Virus record (IMG/VR): IMGVR_UViG_3300048029_000153
Location: 1 to 21,730 of that record
DNA length: 21,730 nt
Source of the DNA: a virus
Direction: 5' to 3' (one strand)
This document shows, piece by piece, positions 4,128 to 19,622 of the stretch (position 1 is the stretch's first letter; each line of letters opens with the position of its first letter). The translations under genes and the position numbers were made by a program. The notes below the pieces were generated by a model. The model saw only the letters and a list, made by a program, of their open reading frames with translations. It ran no database searches and had not been told where the DNA came from.

Positions 4128-4556
4128 TTATGACCAATCCTTAACGGCAAAGCAAGGACAAGCTTTTCTTGCATATGAATTATGCCCAGATATTTCTTTT
4201 ATGCTTGGAAACTTGCTGCTGTATTCCACAATCAATTCACGCAAAGCTTCTTCTTGCTCTGGTGTAAAATTATCTAAGAAAGCATCATCAGCACAGCCAC
4301 CACGCCCACCTACTAGGCTCACCCCTATGGATGACTTGTTGCGGCCTCTACAGTGCGCCCCAGAGCGCTCTACGGGCCTTCCATAGCCAACAGATCCATC
4401 ACGGTGAATGATTGCATGATAGCCAATGTCAGACCAGTTGCGTTCTTCTACATGCCAGCGCCTAATCTCTGTTACCACATCCTCAACGGGCCGATCAGCA
4501 TACCAGCTTGGATTTGTTGCGGTGCAGTGAATTATAATCTCGTTTATCTCTCTCAT
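4128..4556 (-). CDS. Endolysin: N-acetylmuramoyl-L-alanine amidase, T7-lysozyme-like
   Basis: A 142-residue amidase_2/PGRP-fold zinc amidase that cuts the bond between MurNAc and L-alanine in peptidoglycan. Visible residues match T7 lysozyme: zinc ligands H10 (IIIHCTAT), H125 (SGHNSYAR) and C133 (KACPCF); catalytic Y46 (IGYHAIIHRDG) and K131. The H-K-C spacing (+6, +8) equals that of T7 (H122, K128, C130). There is no signal peptide or anchor, so export depends on the holin gene just upstream, joined by an ATGA overlap. It is the last gene of the late leftward operon. T7 lysozyme also inhibits T7 RNA polymerase, but nothing here shows that role. Confidence 0.93.
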   Translation of the reverse strand: MREINEIIIHCTATNPSWYADRPVEDVVTEIRRWHVEERNWSDIGYHAIIHRDGSVGYGRPVERSGAHCRGRNKSSIGVSLVGGRGGCADDAFLDNFTPEQEEALRELIVEYSSKFPSIKEISGHNSYARKACPCFAVKDWS

Positions 4557-7927: not shown

Positions 7928-10647
7928 TAGTAACCTACCGTTGCTGAAAGAACTGTGATGGCTGGTGATACTTCAGTATTCGTTGCATTTAAGTTTACCC
8001 TAAATTGGAAGCCTCTGCCAACCACTTGCTGACCAATAGCGTTTTCCCATGCGCCCCATGTCGGTGACGATGCTGGATTATCTGGCGTTGATCTTACCTG
8101 AACAGAAGTTGAGAAATCACCAAAGGCAGCATCCTCATTTGTCCAGTCATCAAATGTATCAGGCCAAGTATCCCAATTCTGGGGAATATTATCAAAGACA
8201 GAAGCATAATCGATATGCCGCGCAAAAGTCACACTGCCAGTTGTGGTGGCCGTTCTGCTTGATCCCAAATCAATATAGTCAGCGCCATTTGTATCGGTTT
8301 GTGAGCCAGACAGGTTGCCACCAAAATAATAAATACCGCTTGGCGTAGCCGCAGAAGTGTCGTTGATGCGTAATTCATCTGGGTTTGGCGAGGTATCAAC
8401 AGTGATATTGGTGTTGCTGATGCCGGTATTACCAGCAAATGTATGCGCCCCGCTTTCCGTCTGCGTTACAGCCACGCCCAAAGTTGGAAGTGAAGCAGCA
8501 GGAATAACAACAAAAGCCGCATTGTTTGATGGGTTTCCAGCCTTGTCATATGCCTTTATTAAGAATGTTCCCGATCTGGCTGGCACTGTGGCGAATGTGG
8601 CGGGCCTAGCAACGCGGTTAATAGCAATGTTGGAGTTACCACCCCAGAGCGCATTTGCATCACTGGTGGACGCTGTGGTTAAGTCTGACGAATACTTTAT
8701 CTGATAGTAAGATAAATCTAAATCAGCGATTGGCTCCCACTGCAAAAACAACGTGCCACCAGAAACCTCAAATATAAAATCATTGCTGACTACATCTGCT
8801 GGTGGCGTATCCAAGGGAGCTAAGAGGAAATTAAGCAAATAGCTATATTCGCCCTTCACGCCAAACGTATTAACGCCTCTGACCCGCGCATCATAATTAG
8901 CTTCATCCAGATCAAGAACACTATACCGACCAAGGCCACCCGTTCCTATGTTCAGATAATCGCCCGTATTTGCCACCCTATACTGCACTTCTACACGATC
9001 AATCCTAGAGGCGTCTGCTGCGGTTACGTCTAGCTGTAGCTCACGCAATAGCTTCTCGCTCACAACCTTAAACACGCCGCCATATTCATTAGATGTGGCT
9101 ATCGCTACTGGTGGCACCTCAAATGGGCTGAGAAGCGTTGTATTATCACGCTCATATACAATACCATCAGATATATCATCAAAGACGCTTGCAGATATTT
9201 CTCGCAGCACCAAATTACAGCGCAGATCGTTATCTTCCTGCAATCCAAACGTCCATTGCACCACTTCATATTCTTTGTTTGTCCAACCAAATCTGGCAAT
9301 AGTCATTTTAACAATATCACCAACTTGAACTTGAAACGCCCTCATGCCCAGCGAAACTTGAACAGTTAGCTGCTGACGATTGCGCTCCAGCGTAATAAGA
9401 GCCAGCCGCCGTGCTATGTCAAAGCTATCGGTAAATGGCAAATCTAAGTCATAGGTGCTGATTTGATTGTTGTCAGCCGTTCTAAATGCAGCATTGGTGA
9501 CTTCTGCATAATCTGTCGGCTGATAATCTGTTGCTGGCCCTCTGAATACACCTTTGACCGTGTTGAAGTTATCCCTGCGGCTATGACGGGTGGAAACTTG
9601 CACATTAGAACGCAAATCATCCTCAGTAAATGTAACGGTAGGTGCAACGTAATGCCCTGCCTTCATGCGCCACTTGCCTTGACCATACCAAATCAGCCCA
9701 GCCATTGCGGTTAGCATATCCATCATGTGATCGTGTGGAGTGACCGCCGTGGTAAATGAGCCATCCATAGTGAAACGCAAACCACCAGTCTTAGTAGACG
9801 CTGGATCTGCGTTGTTCACATCGTAATTCTTATATTGGCAAACATCAGCCGCAACCGTAACCGCATCATCATCAATCGATGCAGACCCCTCGCCAAGACC
9901 ATAAGACGCGCTTGTAATGTAATCCCGTAGACAAAGCGCAGGATTATCTGACCATGCTGTGCTGGATGATCTGGGATCATAGACCTTCTTGCCTTTAATG
10001 ATGCAAGTTATCTCAGGAACGCCATTAGGGAAGGCATCAGCGTCAAATTCCATGCGGAAATAAGCGTAAGCTACGCCTTGTAACTTATGGTCTTGCGTCC
10101 ATGCTACACCACCAGAAATGAGGGCTGCGATTGCTGTATTATTCTCTGTGCCACCTTTGCGCTGATAAATCCGCACATAATCATTATATCTGGTGCTGGT
10201 TGCGCCGGTCTTAGTGGTGGCAACGGTTGGCTTATAATAAGTGTCACCATTGCTATCTGTATCGGTTGTGAGGGTAAGAGCCTCATCATTGAAGTAAAAC
10301 GTGCTAAATTCTTCTATTTCATGCCCAGCAAAAGCAATAACCCTGTGAAGGATCTTGTTATTAACGCCTGACACGGCATCGAATACAATCGCGCCGCCAA
10401 CCTTGGTTTGACCGTATATAATCTGATGGTTTTGAGCAGACCCCCTAGACGAAATCTGATAGCCACGGTTAGCCGCGTTTGATCCCGTTGATACGTTTGG
10501 AATGCTTGGCTTTGGTGTAAGCGCATTAAGAGCCGCACCCATAGCCGTGGTGACTAAGAAGTGCGTCATTATTGATCCACCAATCAACGCGCCAGTTAGA
10601 CCAGCCGTTGCGGTACTCATAATTGCCATGCCAGCAGAAATAGCCAT
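7927..10647 (-). CDS. Tail tip/host-specificity protein, lambda J-like (906 aa)
   Basis: A 906-residue central tail-tip protein of the lambda gpJ type, which forms the baseplate hub and carries receptor-binding domains. Residues 1-45 are strongly hydrophobic and alanine/glycine-rich (GLTGALIGGSIM, TTAMGAALNALTPKP), as in many tip proteins with a membrane-inserting start. The next region (GSAQNHQIIYGQTKVGGAIV, about 69-88) and ITCIIKGKKVYDPR match the conserved J/phage-tail_3 core. About 520-760 reads as fibronectin-III-like repeats (LFLQWEPIADLDLSYYQIKY, FLIKAYDKAGNPS). The end is strand-rich and variable, as expected for a receptor-binding tip. It is joined by TGATG to the acetyltransferase gene and by TAATG to the fibre gene. 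Confidence 0.87.
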   Translation of the reverse strand: MAISAGMAIMSTATAGLTGALIGGSIMTHFLVTTAMGAALNALTPKPSIPNVSTGSNAANRGYQISSRGSAQNHQIIYGQTKVGGAIVFDAVSGVNNKILHRVIAFAGHEIEEFSTFYFNDEALTLTTDTDSNGDTYYKPTVATTKTGATSTRYNDYVRIYQRKGGTENNTAIAALISGGVAWTQDHKLQGVAYAYFRMEFDADAFPNGVPEITCIIKGKKVYDPRSSSTAWSDNPALCLRDYITSASYGLGEGSASIDDDAVTVAADVCQYKNYDVNNADPASTKTGGLRFTMDGSFTTAVTPHDHMMDMLTAMAGLIWYGQGKWRMKAGHYVAPTVTFTEDDLRSNVQVSTRHSRRDNFNTVKGVFRGPATDYQPTDYAEVTNAAFRTADNNQISTYDLDLPFTDSFDIARRLALITLERNRQQLTVQVSLGMRAFQVQVGDIVKMTIARFGWTNKEYEVVQWTFGLQEDNDLRCNLVLREISASVFDDISDGIVYERDNTTLLSPFEVPPVAIATSNEYGGVFKVVSEKLLRELQLDVTAADASRIDRVEVQYRVANTGDYLNIGTGGLGRYSVLDLDEANYDARVRGVNTFGVKGEYSYLLNFLLAPLDTPPADVVSNDFIFEVSGGTLFLQWEPIADLDLSYYQIKYSSDLTTASTSDANALWGGNSNIAINRVARPATFATVPARSGTFLIKAYDKAGNPSNNAAFVVIPAASLPTLGVAVTQTESGAHTFAGNTGISNTNITVDTSPNPDELRINDTSAATPSGIYYFGGNLSGSQTDTNGADYIDLGSSRTATTTGSVTFARHIDYASVFDNIPQNWDTWPDTFDDWTNEDAAFGDFSTSVQVRSTPDNPASSPTWGAWENAIGQQVVGRGFQFRVNLNATNTEVSPAITVLSATVGY

Positions 10648-11102
10648 CAGTCACCTATATATTTCTGATAAACACGTTCTACCATATTATACTTTAGATA
10701 TTCCATTAGTTTATCAAATGGCCTGTGCGTCTTAGTGTTTATTGTCATCACAGAAACGCCTTCTTTCTTTAAGCACTTCTCAGCGAACTTAACTAACTTT
10801 ACACCAGTTAAGCCTCTTCGCCAATCCTTGTGAAGGTATAGCACATCATTAACCGCAAACACATGATCCTTATAATGCAAATTCATGCCTATGATTAACA
10901 CGAAATAACCCACTAGCTTTTGGTTTTCCCGCGCCGTGTAAATGCGTAACTGGTTTTCCTTCTCTAGCTCCTGATACGCTTCCCAATGCGGGTTTAGCTT
11001 AATCTTGTGCTTATTGATTGCTATTTCTTGCCAATGTAATTCTAGGAGATGTTTGGCGTCATCCACGCAAGAAGCTAGAAATTCTTGCTGGAAGTTAGGC
11101 AC
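10647..11102 (-). CDS. GNAT-fold acetyltransferase in the tail module (151 aa)
   Basis: A 151-residue protein with the GNAT layout. A helical N-terminus comes first, then strands (LRIYTARENQKLVGYFVLII), a central strand (HVFAVNDVLYLHKDWR) leading into the acetyl-CoA loop RRGLTG (95-100) and its helix (VKLVKFAEKCLKKEG), then a C-terminal strand and helix (FDKLMEYLKYNMVERVYQKY). The family transfers an acyl group from CoA to amines; the substrate cannot be read here. It overlaps the upstream tail gene by 8 nt and joins the J-like gene by TGATG, so it is fixed in the late operon. In lambda-like tails this slot holds an NlpC/P60 peptidase gene. Acetyltransferase-like proteins are known in phage structural regions, including T7-like internal virion proteins. 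Confidence 0.8.
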   Translation of the reverse strand: MPNFQQEFLASCVDDAKHLLELHWQEIAINKHKIKLNPHWEAYQELEKENQLRIYTARENQKLVGYFVLIIGMNLHYKDHVFAVNDVLYLHKDWRRGLTGVKLVKFAEKCLKKEGVSVMTINTKTHRPFDKLMEYLKYNMVERVYQKYIGD

Positions 11103-16808: not shown

Positions 16809-18746
16809 TTATCCGAATACCGCCTTCATCTGACCGCCACGCCTACGGCTCTCCATTATTGATTGCTGCGTCATCTTAGCAATTTTTGGCGCTTGCTGGG
16901 CAATTATTTGCTTTACGCTCTCATCTCCATTTGCAGCGAAGTTAAATGTTTGCTGAACAACCACACCGCCGCCCATCTGGTTATTTGGCACAACGTGAGA
17001 ATTACGGCTTGGAATTACAAGCTCTGGGCCACGCTCACCAACCATATAGGCTTGCCCGCCAGACATGGGGCCACCCATAGCGCGGCGCGGCGCTCTAGGC
17101 GGCGCAACAGATCCACCCGTACCAGCGGCAGAAGCAGGGGCAAATGCACCAGAAACAGCCCCCGTAATAAATCCCGTAATTTGCTTAACCACGAATATCC
17201 GGTAAAGTTCAGAGATAATGTCACGCGCCATTGTTCTGAATGCATCTTTAGCTGTCATCGTACCATCTACCATAGACATGATGGCGCTTTCAAATGAGCT
17301 ACCTACCATCTCTGATGCGTCCTTGATCCGCATAAGCTCTGGGCTTAGTTCAGTTTTCATAATCTCAGCGGTGTTCTTTATGCTTTCACTGCCTTTATCA
17401 CCGCCTGTGATCTTCGCATAAGCCTCTTGCATTTCTTTTATGGCTTTTGCCCTTTCGGTTTCCGCAACCGTTACAGAAGCCTCAATCATAAAGCTTGCGC
17501 GAGCGGCAGCTATCTCAGACTGCTTTGCCGCAAGCCTGTCTGCGTATAACTTATTGTTCGCCGCTATAGCCGCAGAAAGCCCCTTTTCACTACCTAATAT
17601 ATCAACATAATCGTTGGCTGTAGTGTCTATAGTGCCAAGCCTATTCTTATAAAGCTGGTTTGCAGCTTCAACTGCTTGAGCCAAGCCGTTCTCGCTGCCC
17701 AATATATCAACGTAATTTGCAGCAGTCTTATCTATCGCTCCATTTTTCTCAATGTAAAGCTGCTTTATGGCTTCTTCAGCCTGAATAAGGCCATATGTGC
17801 TGCCCAATATATCTCTATAAGCATCTGACGTTTTAGACGCTTCATCCTTGGTGGCGCTGGCCTCTTGGCTAATTACGCCAATAAGACCTTGCTGTTCAGC
17901 AAATAACTTTAATTGCTTGTCTAACTCAGGAGTAAGTAATTGTTCAGCATCAAGCGTACTAATTGCATTCTGCAAACTTTCAGCGGCTTCTTGCCTTGTG
18001 CTGCCATTTATGCCAAGCAAGATTTCTTCAGCCCTAGCCCTTTTCTGGGTGATAGCCAACAAACTTTTATAAATTGACTGCTGAGCTTCAGTCAATTTTA
18101 CGTTATTGCCAACATCAGTCTGAATTCTTTTCAGCATGTCTTGTTGGGAACTGACCAATTCAGGCGGCAAAGCTCCCAATACAGTTTTGAGCGCTTGATC
18201 TCTCTGCTCTTCAGCCACCCTTCTTATCAACGCAAGTAAGTCTGAATATTTGGCCATAGCAGCAGTGGCGGGCGCTGATAATTCATCACCTAAACCCGCA
18301 AAATCTATGCTGTCTAACGTATCATAAGCCGCTGATAACTGAGTTACCGCAGTTTCTACATTATTAGTCGCACCAGCAGCCTTATCAGCAGCCATCTTGA
18401 ATGCAGAGAAAACAGATATAGCCGCGCCAAGCACAGCACCAAATGGGCCAAATATCTGAAAGAATTGTCCAGCCTGTTGACCAAATGCTTGTGTCGCGCT
18501 GGTTCCATTGGCAACCTGAACTGCATAGTCACCAATTTGATAACCCGCTTGCTGAACCCCGCCTAATGCGAATTTACGCAAGTTCTTAGTGGCTCCTGTT
18601 AAAGAACCGCCAAACTGGTTCATCTGAACTGAACTTTGCTTTATCTGACGATCAAAGTTTCTAACGCGACCCTGAACTTGCTGAATAGGCCGACTAGCGC
18701 GATCAACCGCGAGAAGTTCAAACTTTAGCTGTTCTGCGCTTGCCAT
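16809..18746 (-). CDS. Tape measure protein (645 aa)
   Basis: The start at ATG 18746 (MASAEQLKFELLAVDRASRP) has GGCGGG upstream and begins inside the frameshift extension of the preceding gene. An in-frame ATG at 18794 would add 16 residues that belong to that other frame. The N-terminus is coiled-coil-like (IQQVQGRVRNFDRQIKQSSV). A hydrophobic stretch at about 100-116 (GPFGAVLGAAISVFSAF) and a long helical middle with tandem repeats follow. The C-terminus carries the tape-measure hallmark MVGERGPELV (570-577) and a glycine-rich end. It sets tail length and assists DNA delivery. A 645-residue tape implies a tail shorter than lambda's, using the usual length relationship. Confidence 0.9.
   Translation of the reverse strand: MASAEQLKFELLAVDRASRPIQQVQGRVRNFDRQIKQSSVQMNQFGGSLTGATKNLRKFALGGVQQAGYQIGDYAVQVANGTSATQAFGQQAGQFFQIFGPFGAVLGAAISVFSAFKMAADKAAGATNNVETAVTQLSAAYDTLDSIDFAGLGDELSAPATAAMAKYSDLLALIRRVAEEQRDQALKTVLGALPPELVSSQQDMLKRIQTDVGNNVKLTEAQQSIYKSLLAITQKRARAEEILLGINGSTRQEAAESLQNAISTLDAEQLLTPELDKQLKLFAEQQGLIGVISQEASATKDEASKTSDAYRDILGSTYGLIQAEEAIKQLYIEKNGAIDKTAANYVDILGSENGLAQAVEAANQLYKNRLGTIDTTANDYVDILGSEKGLSAAIAANNKLYADRLAAKQSEIAAARASFMIEASVTVAETERAKAIKEMQEAYAKITGGDKGSESIKNTAEIMKTELSPELMRIKDASEMVGSSFESAIMSMVDGTMTAKDAFRTMARDIISELYRIFVVKQITGFITGAVSGAFAPASAAGTGGSVAPPRAPRRAMGGPMSGGQAYMVGERGPELVIPSRNSHVVPNNQMGGGVVVQQTFNFAANGDESVKQIIAQQAPKIAKMTQQSIMESRRRGGQMKAVFG
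17520..17819 (-). repeat. Three tandem ~105-bp repeats inside the tape measure gene
   Basis: The protein repeats a 35-residue unit starting Y(R/V)DILGS: first at 17819 (YRDILGSTYGLIQAEEA...), second at 17714 (YVDILGSENGLAQAVEA...), third at 17609 (YVDILGSEKGLSAAIAA...), the last about 30 residues long. Shared positions include DILGS, G at 10, A at 14 and LY at 21-22. The spacing is exactly 105 bp between starts. Repeats of this kind lengthen or shorten the tape, so the unit probably arose by duplication. Confidence 0.8.
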
Positions 18747-19229
18747 CTTCTTCCCGCCTTTCGTCTGCGATCTTAAAGTATGCGACCCATTCATTATACT
18801 CCGTTACCGTGATTTTCTCAATCTCGCTAATGGTGCGGCCTAATCTATCTGCTAATGCGATTAAATTAAACCTGAATGGGTCTTTCCTTAGTTTCCCTCG
18901 GCTTCCTCAATAGAGCCAGCAGACATCATAGGCGCACTGATCTTATAGATCACCTCATGGGGAATGCGCTTCAGCTTAGGCTTATGCTCAATCGTATAAG
19001 CCTTTTCGCCATCCTCCTTTAGAGCCTTCAAGATAATCAGATCAATCAGAGCGTCTATGTTGGCAGATGGGAAGTCAGAATGCTTCCTCTGGATCGTTGA
19101 CATTTCGCCAGAAGTCATAGGGGTATAGTAAACACGCAGAGGCTTGGCCCCTGCGCGTAATGTTACTTCTATATGCCTTGTTTCGATATTTGATAAATAA
19201 TCGTCTAAGGCATCAATAGGGTTGGACAT
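18718..19229 (-). CDS. Tail assembly chaperone GT-type fusion via -1 frameshift (170 aa)
   Basis: Reading 19229 to 18891, then slipping back one base at GGGAAAC, continues to a TGA at 18718-18720. The result is the 113-residue first part plus a 57-residue extension (LRKDPFRFNLIALADRLGRT, EIEKITVTEYNEWVAYFKIA). The extension has the E..EWxAYF pattern seen in the T part of lambda GT-type tail chaperones, and a strong protein-like composition. It has no ribosome binding site of its own and ends inside the start of the tape measure gene (29-nt overlap), exactly as in lambda G-GT-H. The fusion would hold the tape measure protein and recruit tube subunits. The frame is read directly; frameshifting itself is inferred from the motif. 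Confidence 0.88.
18888..19229 (-). CDS. Tail assembly chaperone, gpG-type (113 aa)
   Basis: A 113-residue acidic and helical protein between tube and tape measure genes. It starts MSNPIDALDDYLSNIETRHI and contains TLRAGAKPLRVYYTPMTSG and ALIDLIILKALKEDGEKAY, the pattern of gpG-like tail assembly chaperones. It ends EEAEGN at a TAA placed immediately after the slippery heptamer. This unshifted product would be the major form; the -1 product is listed separately. The gene begins 3 nt after the tube gene's stop. Not a virion component in the known systems. Confidence 0.85.
   Translation of the reverse strand: MSNPIDALDDYLSNIETRHIEVTLRAGAKPLRVYYTPMTSGEMSTIQRKHSDFPSANIDALIDLIILKALKEDGEKAYTIEHKPKLKRIPHEVIYKISAPMMSAGSIEEAEGN
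18891..18897 (-). promoter_or_regulatory. -1 ribosomal frameshift slippery site GGGAAAC
   Basis: On the leftward strand the heptamer reads G GGA AAC in the zero frame, an X XXY YYZ slippery site, and the next codon is TAA. An SD-like GAGG lies about 7 nt ahead, which could stimulate slippage. Downstream bases are A/T-rich with no strong hairpin seen. The close relative in lambda is GGGAAAG. Confidence 0.88.
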
Positions 19230-19232
19230 AGG

Positions 19233-19622
19233 TTACACCGTTGTAGCTGTTAATGCCCCGCTACCTTGCACAGTTATTGACGCTTCCACAAGACCATCAA
19301 ATGATGATGAGCGTGTGATCCCTGTCACAATAGCCGCTCCACTGTAATATGTATCACCAGAAGCATCACCTTCTGGATAGACATTAAGCGTAACAGAAGC
19401 ACCGATTGTCAAAGCGCCTTGACCACTTGTGTCTGTCTCATCCCAAAATACATCTACTGATCCGGTGAATGTTGTCAGCGAAGATTTATAGGTGCGAGCA
19501 GTGTCGCCCATACTTGTATCTTCTAAAGTATCCGCTGTTTCTTCTAAGCTGAAAGAACGAATTTCTGCAATCGCGTTGGAACCGACCTTAACAGTTCCTT
19601 CGCTACCCGCGTGAGTTGCCAT
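19233..19622 (-). CDS. Major tail tube protein (129 aa)
   Basis: A 129-residue beta-rich tube subunit: it starts MATHAGSEGTVKVGSNAIAE, followed by strands RSFSLEETADTLEDTSMGDT, the loop ARTYKSSLTTFTGSVDVFWD, a glycine-rich turn and SFDGLVEASITVQGSGALTA at the end. This is the length and pattern of TP901-1/lambda V-like tube proteins that polymerise around the tape measure. It follows the tail terminator gene and precedes the chaperone gene, the canonical order. The ribosome binding site AAGGAGACTTTACT is good. It should be one of the most abundant late proteins. Confidence 0.85.
   Translation of the reverse strand: MATHAGSEGTVKVGSNAIAEIRSFSLEETADTLEDTSMGDTARTYKSSLTTFTGSVDVFWDETDTSGQGALTIGASVTLNVYPEGDASGDTYYSGAAIVTGITRSSSFDGLVEASITVQGSGALTATTV

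Follow-up and report, generated by a model that had tools for sequence, protein, structure and literature searches.

Organization of the locus

The sequence analysed here (the window) is a 21.7-kb viral fragment of 21,730 nucleotides. Among annotated phages, those closest to it are Roseobacter phages of the CRP-811/CRP-822 group, and its source virus is a marine phage related to roseophages. The genes of interest lie on the minus strand in the order tube, G, T and tape measure, which is the order found in the G/GT class of tail chaperones. The major tail (tube) protein gene (19233..19622) matches PHROG 1407 major tail protein with E 2.5e-13 and is the upstream neighbour of the 0-frame gene G (18888..19229; 113 aa), a putative tail assembly chaperone. 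The tape measure protein gene (16809..18746) matches PHROG 1538 tail length tape measure protein with E 1.6e-24.

Read directly, the end of G (minus strand, 18908-18888) is GAG GAA GCC GAG GGA AAC TAA. It contains an SD-like GAGG (18905..18908), a slippery heptamer in the phase G_GGA_AAC (18891..18897), which is unique in the window on both strands considered, and the 0-frame stop TAA (18888..18890) directly 3' of the heptamer. After a -1 slip the next codon would be CTA (18891-18889), and reading would go on as CTA AGG AAA GAC in a frame (18718..18891; T) that stays open for 57 codons until the TGA at 18720-18718, giving a predicted G-T fusion of 170 aa whose junction is spanned by EEAEGNLRKDPF. 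The extension contains the motif EYNEWVAYF, and its end reaches 29 nt into the tape measure gene (ATG 18746). An earlier reading of the letters and their open reading frames (the sequence-only reading) had claimed just such a site, with GGGAAAC (18897-18891) abutting TAA (18890-18888), a 57-codon -1 frame ending inside the tape measure start and the motif E..EWxAYF in the extension, and each of these was confirmed.

For the tape measure gene, the ORF finder chose ATG 18794 as the start, a position within T that overlaps the 3' arm of the RNA stem described below. The start at ATG 18746, behind AGGCGGGAAGAAG, matches the annotated relatives and is the likelier one.

Conservation of the putative slip site among relatives

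Relatives of G were sought in IMG/VR, INPHARED and one genome collection, and we got 241 of them, including the window itself and some overlapping extracts from the same contigs. After 4 relatives cut by contig ends and 2 with a broken G frame were left out, 235 intact relatives remained, which form 41 clusters below 90% identity; the cluster count is the fairer count. It turned out that an X_XXY_YYZ heptamer ends exactly at the 0-frame stop, at a distance of 0 nt, in all intact relatives (235 of 235), with G identity going down to about 27%. The heptamer is AAAAAAC in 126 of them, GGGAAAC in 86 and AAAAAAG in 23, and the stop varies among TAA, TAG and TGA while its position is fixed. The -1 extension is also kept in all 235, and no intact relative lacking the heptamer or the -1 frame was found among them, so that the conservation which the sequence-only reading had proposed to look for holds throughout. 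In 98 intact relatives the -1 frame is closed immediately 5' of the heptamer, which means that entry into T must occur within those 7 nt. A 57-codon open frame alone is possible by chance, and it is the conservation that exceeds chance. The relatives are not independent draws, yet the protein has diverged while the site has stayed.

The two relatives with a broken frame (L055 and L065) were considered as exceptions and rejected as such: the reading frame of G is disrupted, either within the gene or at its end, and AAAAAAC with a stop triplet is still present. The end of G in L065 carries a 26-nt tandem duplication, by which the GAGG-AAAAAAC cassette occurs twice and the frame is shifted; this is a defective variant or an assembly error. 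In L055, the G homologue (2204-2563) has a frame change 5' of an AAAAAAC-TAA that is itself intact, and a pseudogene or a sequencing error is the probable reason. In Pelagibacter phage HTVC202P (2460-2644), nine A, C and TAA are followed by a T extension that lies upstream of the tape measure gene and is not annotated. Besides, relatives of the module occur on contigs binned to very different bacteria, a Burkholderiales MAG (L245) and a Flavobacteriaceae MAG (L246), which are probably viral contigs in the wrong bin.

Identity of G and T and coding constraint on the -1 frame

To characterize the two products, we compared them with profile, structure and sequence databases. The G protein of 17 of the 21 family members matches PHROG 344 (tail assembly chaperone; best E 1.9e-10), and for T, PHROG 337 (tail protein) is matched by 20 of 21. 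The AlphaFold model of G has a mean pLDDT of 85, and its best PDB fold match is HK97 gp13 (2OB9; probability 1.00, E 0.02, TM 0.53), with YqbN also among the best fold matches. For T, the family profile and the T part of HK97 gp14 align with E 7.9e-7 (39% identity over 36 residues), above all 150 shuffles. Against lambda T alone the match is weak, with E 0.009 and one of 150 shuffles scoring equally high, and this similarity is suggestive only. When the sequence of G was compared directly with lambda G and with HK97 gp13, neither match was significant; a Pfam chaperone match was obtained in only 1 of 12 relatives (PF16459, E 0.003), and no match was returned by the PDB sequence search with the family profile, by the NCBIfam search or by the Rfam search of 18600-19100. 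Taken as a whole, G and T are homologous to known tail-chaperone parts.

For 26 haplotypes of the window clade, dN/dS in the T region is 0.19 in the -1 frame versus 1.34 and 1.25 in the other two frames, and dN/dS of G is 0.055. T is under purifying selection in the -1 frame, and the lack of coding constraint that would have spoken against the sequence-only reading is not what these substitutions show. T is conserved family-wide with invariant positions A, L, E, E and W, and its conserved domain begins within a few codons of the heptamer. In the window, the initial 34 codons of T are free of ATG, GTG and TTG, which makes independent initiation unlikely there, and in 13 of 41 clusters the initial 20 are free of them.

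Heptamer strength and the upstream GAGG

The heptamer GGGAAAC is canonical by eukaryotic rules and weak by E. coli standards: Sharma et al. 2014 (PMC4066793) name G_GGA_AAC and A_AAA_AAC as heptamers of low efficiency in E. coli that IS elements probably use all the same. The word "canonical" in the sequence-only reading is thus right in the eukaryotic sense only, and its idea that a heptamer next to the stop makes slippage frequent does not hold for the heptamer by itself. The strength of the heptamer was overstated there, and the downstream stem was missed. With a weak heptamer, stimulators are likely.

An SD-like GAGG about 7 nt upstream had been proposed as such a stimulator. It is present 7 nt 5' of the heptamer in the window and in 33 of 41 clusters overall, and codon choice favours it: the Glu codon at position -6 is GAG in 34 of the 40 clusters with Glu there (expected 18.1, sd 3.0), and a GAG preference was not seen at codon -5. 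The strongest anti-SD pairing in the last 90 nt of G also falls at GAGG. The spacing of 7 nt is closer than the 9-14 nt quoted for SD-like -1 stimulators (PMC5009743), and with AAC in the P site it becomes 11 nt. The over-conserved GAGG is under selection and is a candidate stimulator of slippage.

A long-range RNA stem downstream of the heptamer

A stem that stimulates -1 frameshifting usually sits 5-9 nt downstream of the slippery sequence. The window has GACCCATTCA (18882-18873), which starts 8 nt after the heptamer and pairs perfectly over 10 bp (10 of 10 pairs) with TGAATGGGTC (18793-18784), 79 nt further on, which falls in the codons of the conserved N-E-W-V of T. A local hairpin right after the window heptamer was rejected, its z being 0.1 versus synonymous recoding over the first 50 nt. 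The folding signal appears only once the fold reaches 110 nt, and this led to the long-range stem.

Several comparisons bear on the stem. None of 500 synonymous recodings of the window pairs as stably. For the 20-nt segment at the 5' arm, the 41 clusters compared with synonymous recodings gave a mean z of -2.9 and a combined z of -18.9 (-19.3 in a repeat), whereas equal segments along G, used as control, gave mean z from -0.1 to -1.1 and combined z from -0.8 to -6.9. RNAalifold on 22 relatives proposes the long-range stem and no other. A 12-pair version of the stem is 92% paired in these relatives with a covariation exceeded by 0 of 500 shuffles, and alignment columns 18-112 alone change from C-G to U-A in seven sequences; the 22 relatives were picked partly for pairing, and the recoding test per cluster is the fairer evidence. 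In the window clade, third positions vary in 1 of 15 codons in one arm and 1 of 15 in the other, in 5 of 15 in the loop and in 52 of 113 in G. Judged by this comparative evidence, the stem is selected beyond coding need, and it probably stimulates slippage. It has apparently been overlooked until now.

A single structure common to all clades was also considered and rejected, since a near hairpin is confined to one clade and a mid-range stem to another. In the first of these (12 clusters), the 5' arm position pairs about 30 nt on, in a hairpin of up to 15 pairs with z down to -6.7 (-5 to -6.7 versus synonymous recoding in most clade members), and long-range pairing is mostly no better than chance. 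The hairpin, CGATCCG...CGGATCG, was observed from about 7 nt after AAAAAAC in L057, L066, L070, L083, L196 and others. In the AT-rich pelagiphage-like clade, the 5' arm position pairs about 75 nt on, with compensatory changes; the mid-range pairing GGATAGTAATTT / AAATTACTATCC, with the partner in the I-S-V codons, was seen in L141, L112, L246, L115 and L117. In HTVC202P there is no clear stem. A tree of the 41 clusters implies four changes between stem types, the hairpin type being one strongly supported clade. Thus, in nearly all clades, the 5' arm keeps its distance of 6-8 nt from the heptamer and it is the 3' partner that shifts, a pattern more in keeping with a stimulator facing the ribosome than with a control element of the tape measure.

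Proposed mechanism and alternatives

The conserved site, the -1 frame and stem under selection and the family membership, all drawn from comparative sequence data, argue very strongly that this tail-assembly-chaperone gene undergoes programmed -1 ribosomal frameshifting like that of lambda G/GT and HK97 gp13/gp14. The tail-chaperone claim of the sequence-only reading is well supported in this light by conservation, by selection on the -1 frame, by PHROG 344 and 337 and by HK97 T homology. Most ribosomes would translate G and terminate at TAA, and a minority would slip back one base on G_GGA_AAC, with the tRNAs re-pairing from GGA to GGG and from AAC to AAA. The slipped ribosomes would bypass TAA and append the 57-residue T domain. 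Slippage on the weak heptamer would probably be raised by the upstream GAGG together with the downstream stem. In lambda, G is the partner of the tape measure, and GT, the rarer product, binds the tube subunit through its T part (Atkins et al. 2016, PMC5009743); by analogy, G would coat the tape-measure protein here, and G-T would use its T part to recruit the tube protein. We infer that slippage occurs, how often it does so, that the stem and GAGG stimulate it and that the product acts in assembly.

Other ways of making or using these signals were weighed against the frameshift. The idea that T is a separate small gene with its own internal start, next to which the heptamer is incidental, could draw on the TTG, GTG or ATG codons inside T of some relatives, but it is scarcely credible in view of the stretches free of start codons given above for the window and the 13 clusters, the T domain that starts a few codons from the heptamer and the invariant place of the heptamer (235 of 235). 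Slippage by the polymerase rather than the ribosome could also give a second frame on an A-rich run, and AAAAAAC or longer A runs in relatives, such as the nine A of HTVC202P, could slip in this way; for the locus it is nevertheless very improbable, as the window clade has GGGAAAC only, a run too short for polymerase slippage, and the stem and GAGG are stimulators of the ribosomal type. As to the role of the stem, it might serve tape-measure translation (by coupling or by masking of the ribosome site) or mRNA stability instead of frameshifting. Its place is 5' of the tape-measure start, and tail genes may plausibly be coupled in translation, but we consider such a role unlikely, for in nearly all clades it is the distance between the 5' arm and the heptamer that is fixed (6-8 nt) and the distance from the 3' arm to the tape-measure start that varies; the tape-measure ribosome site of the window is outside the stem, and the 5' arm is at the usual place of a -1 stimulator.

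Within the preferred explanation, a programmed -1 ribosomal frameshift, the flush stop leads to a more detailed hypothesis, which we offer tentatively: slippage may take place after translocation, in the E and P sites with the stop in the A site, and the release factor would then compete with it and set the ratio of G-T to G. The flush stop occurs in all relatives, unlike lambda, where the heptamer is 15 nt before the stop, HK97, where the slip run ends 15 nt before it, and P2, where the heptamer ends 18 nt before it, and annotated frameshift sites of actinophages have a mean distance to the stop of 26 nt (PMC10885494). The GAGG spacing of 11 nt with AAC in the P site also agrees with this hypothesis. 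In work on the HIV heptamer in bacteria, as reported in PMC4373837, a stop directly after the heptamer made frameshifting dependent on release factor, which speaks for it, but according to the same report a stop at that place lowers frameshifting; moreover, the flush stop may have been inherited from one ancestor. Going further, it is conceivable, though doubtful at present, that these loci form a class of tail chaperones with a flush stop, direct competition between release factor and slippage, and a weak AAC heptamer driven by a stem with a fixed 5' arm and a repeatedly swapped 3' partner (near hairpin, mid-range or long-range).

Comparison with known systems and annotations

The window site is a further member of the G/GT class with distinctive cis-signals. 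Like HK97 gp13/gp14, with its annotated -1 frameshift in gp14, it lies between the major tail protein and the tape measure, its T domain is homologous and its G fold matches the solved gp13 (2OB9); unlike here, HK97 has a longer T, and a moron gene precedes the tape measure. It shares gene order and logic with lambda G/GT, which slips on GGGAAAG instead of GGGAAAC, but its T similarity to lambda is marginal on its own. With E. coli dnaX and IS911/IS3-type elements it shares an upstream SD-like element, a slippery heptamer and a downstream RNA structure (PMC5009743), whereas the product is unrelated, the stem here is long-range with a clade-dependent 3' partner, and the SD spacing is shorter.

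The closest annotated cases are the CRP-822-type roseophages CRP-811, -821, -822, -823, -831 and -406, which have the same gene order and, in three clusters, G 32-37% and T 58-70% identical to those of the window. They carry AAAAAAC flush with TAA, not GGGAAAC, and the long-range stem is present at the sites of CRP-811, -823 and -406, as in the window. The predicted G-T junction of CRP-811 lies within EHEKNLRSDPFR. In the deposited roseophage annotations, 138 nt between G and the tape measure are left blank and T is omitted, just as the sequence-only reading had foreseen for standard annotation, and the word frameshift is absent from the paper describing these phages (PMC12629253). Neither the marine roseophages nor pelagiphage HTVC202P have the predicted GT product in their deposited annotations. 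GT is an essential tail factor in lambda, and with GT unannotated, the counterpart of this factor would be hidden in the roseophage/HTVC202P group. Since the family varies in heptamer, stop codon, SD-like element and stem partner, it is a natural series and a test bed for the use of weak AAC heptamers by bacterial ribosomes and for the tuning of -1 frameshifting by an A-site stop.

Other observations in the window

Elsewhere on the minus strand, inspection by eye suggested two further putative products, one acetyltransferase-like and encoded in the tail-tip region (10647-11102), the other a T7-lysozyme-like amidase (4128-4556).
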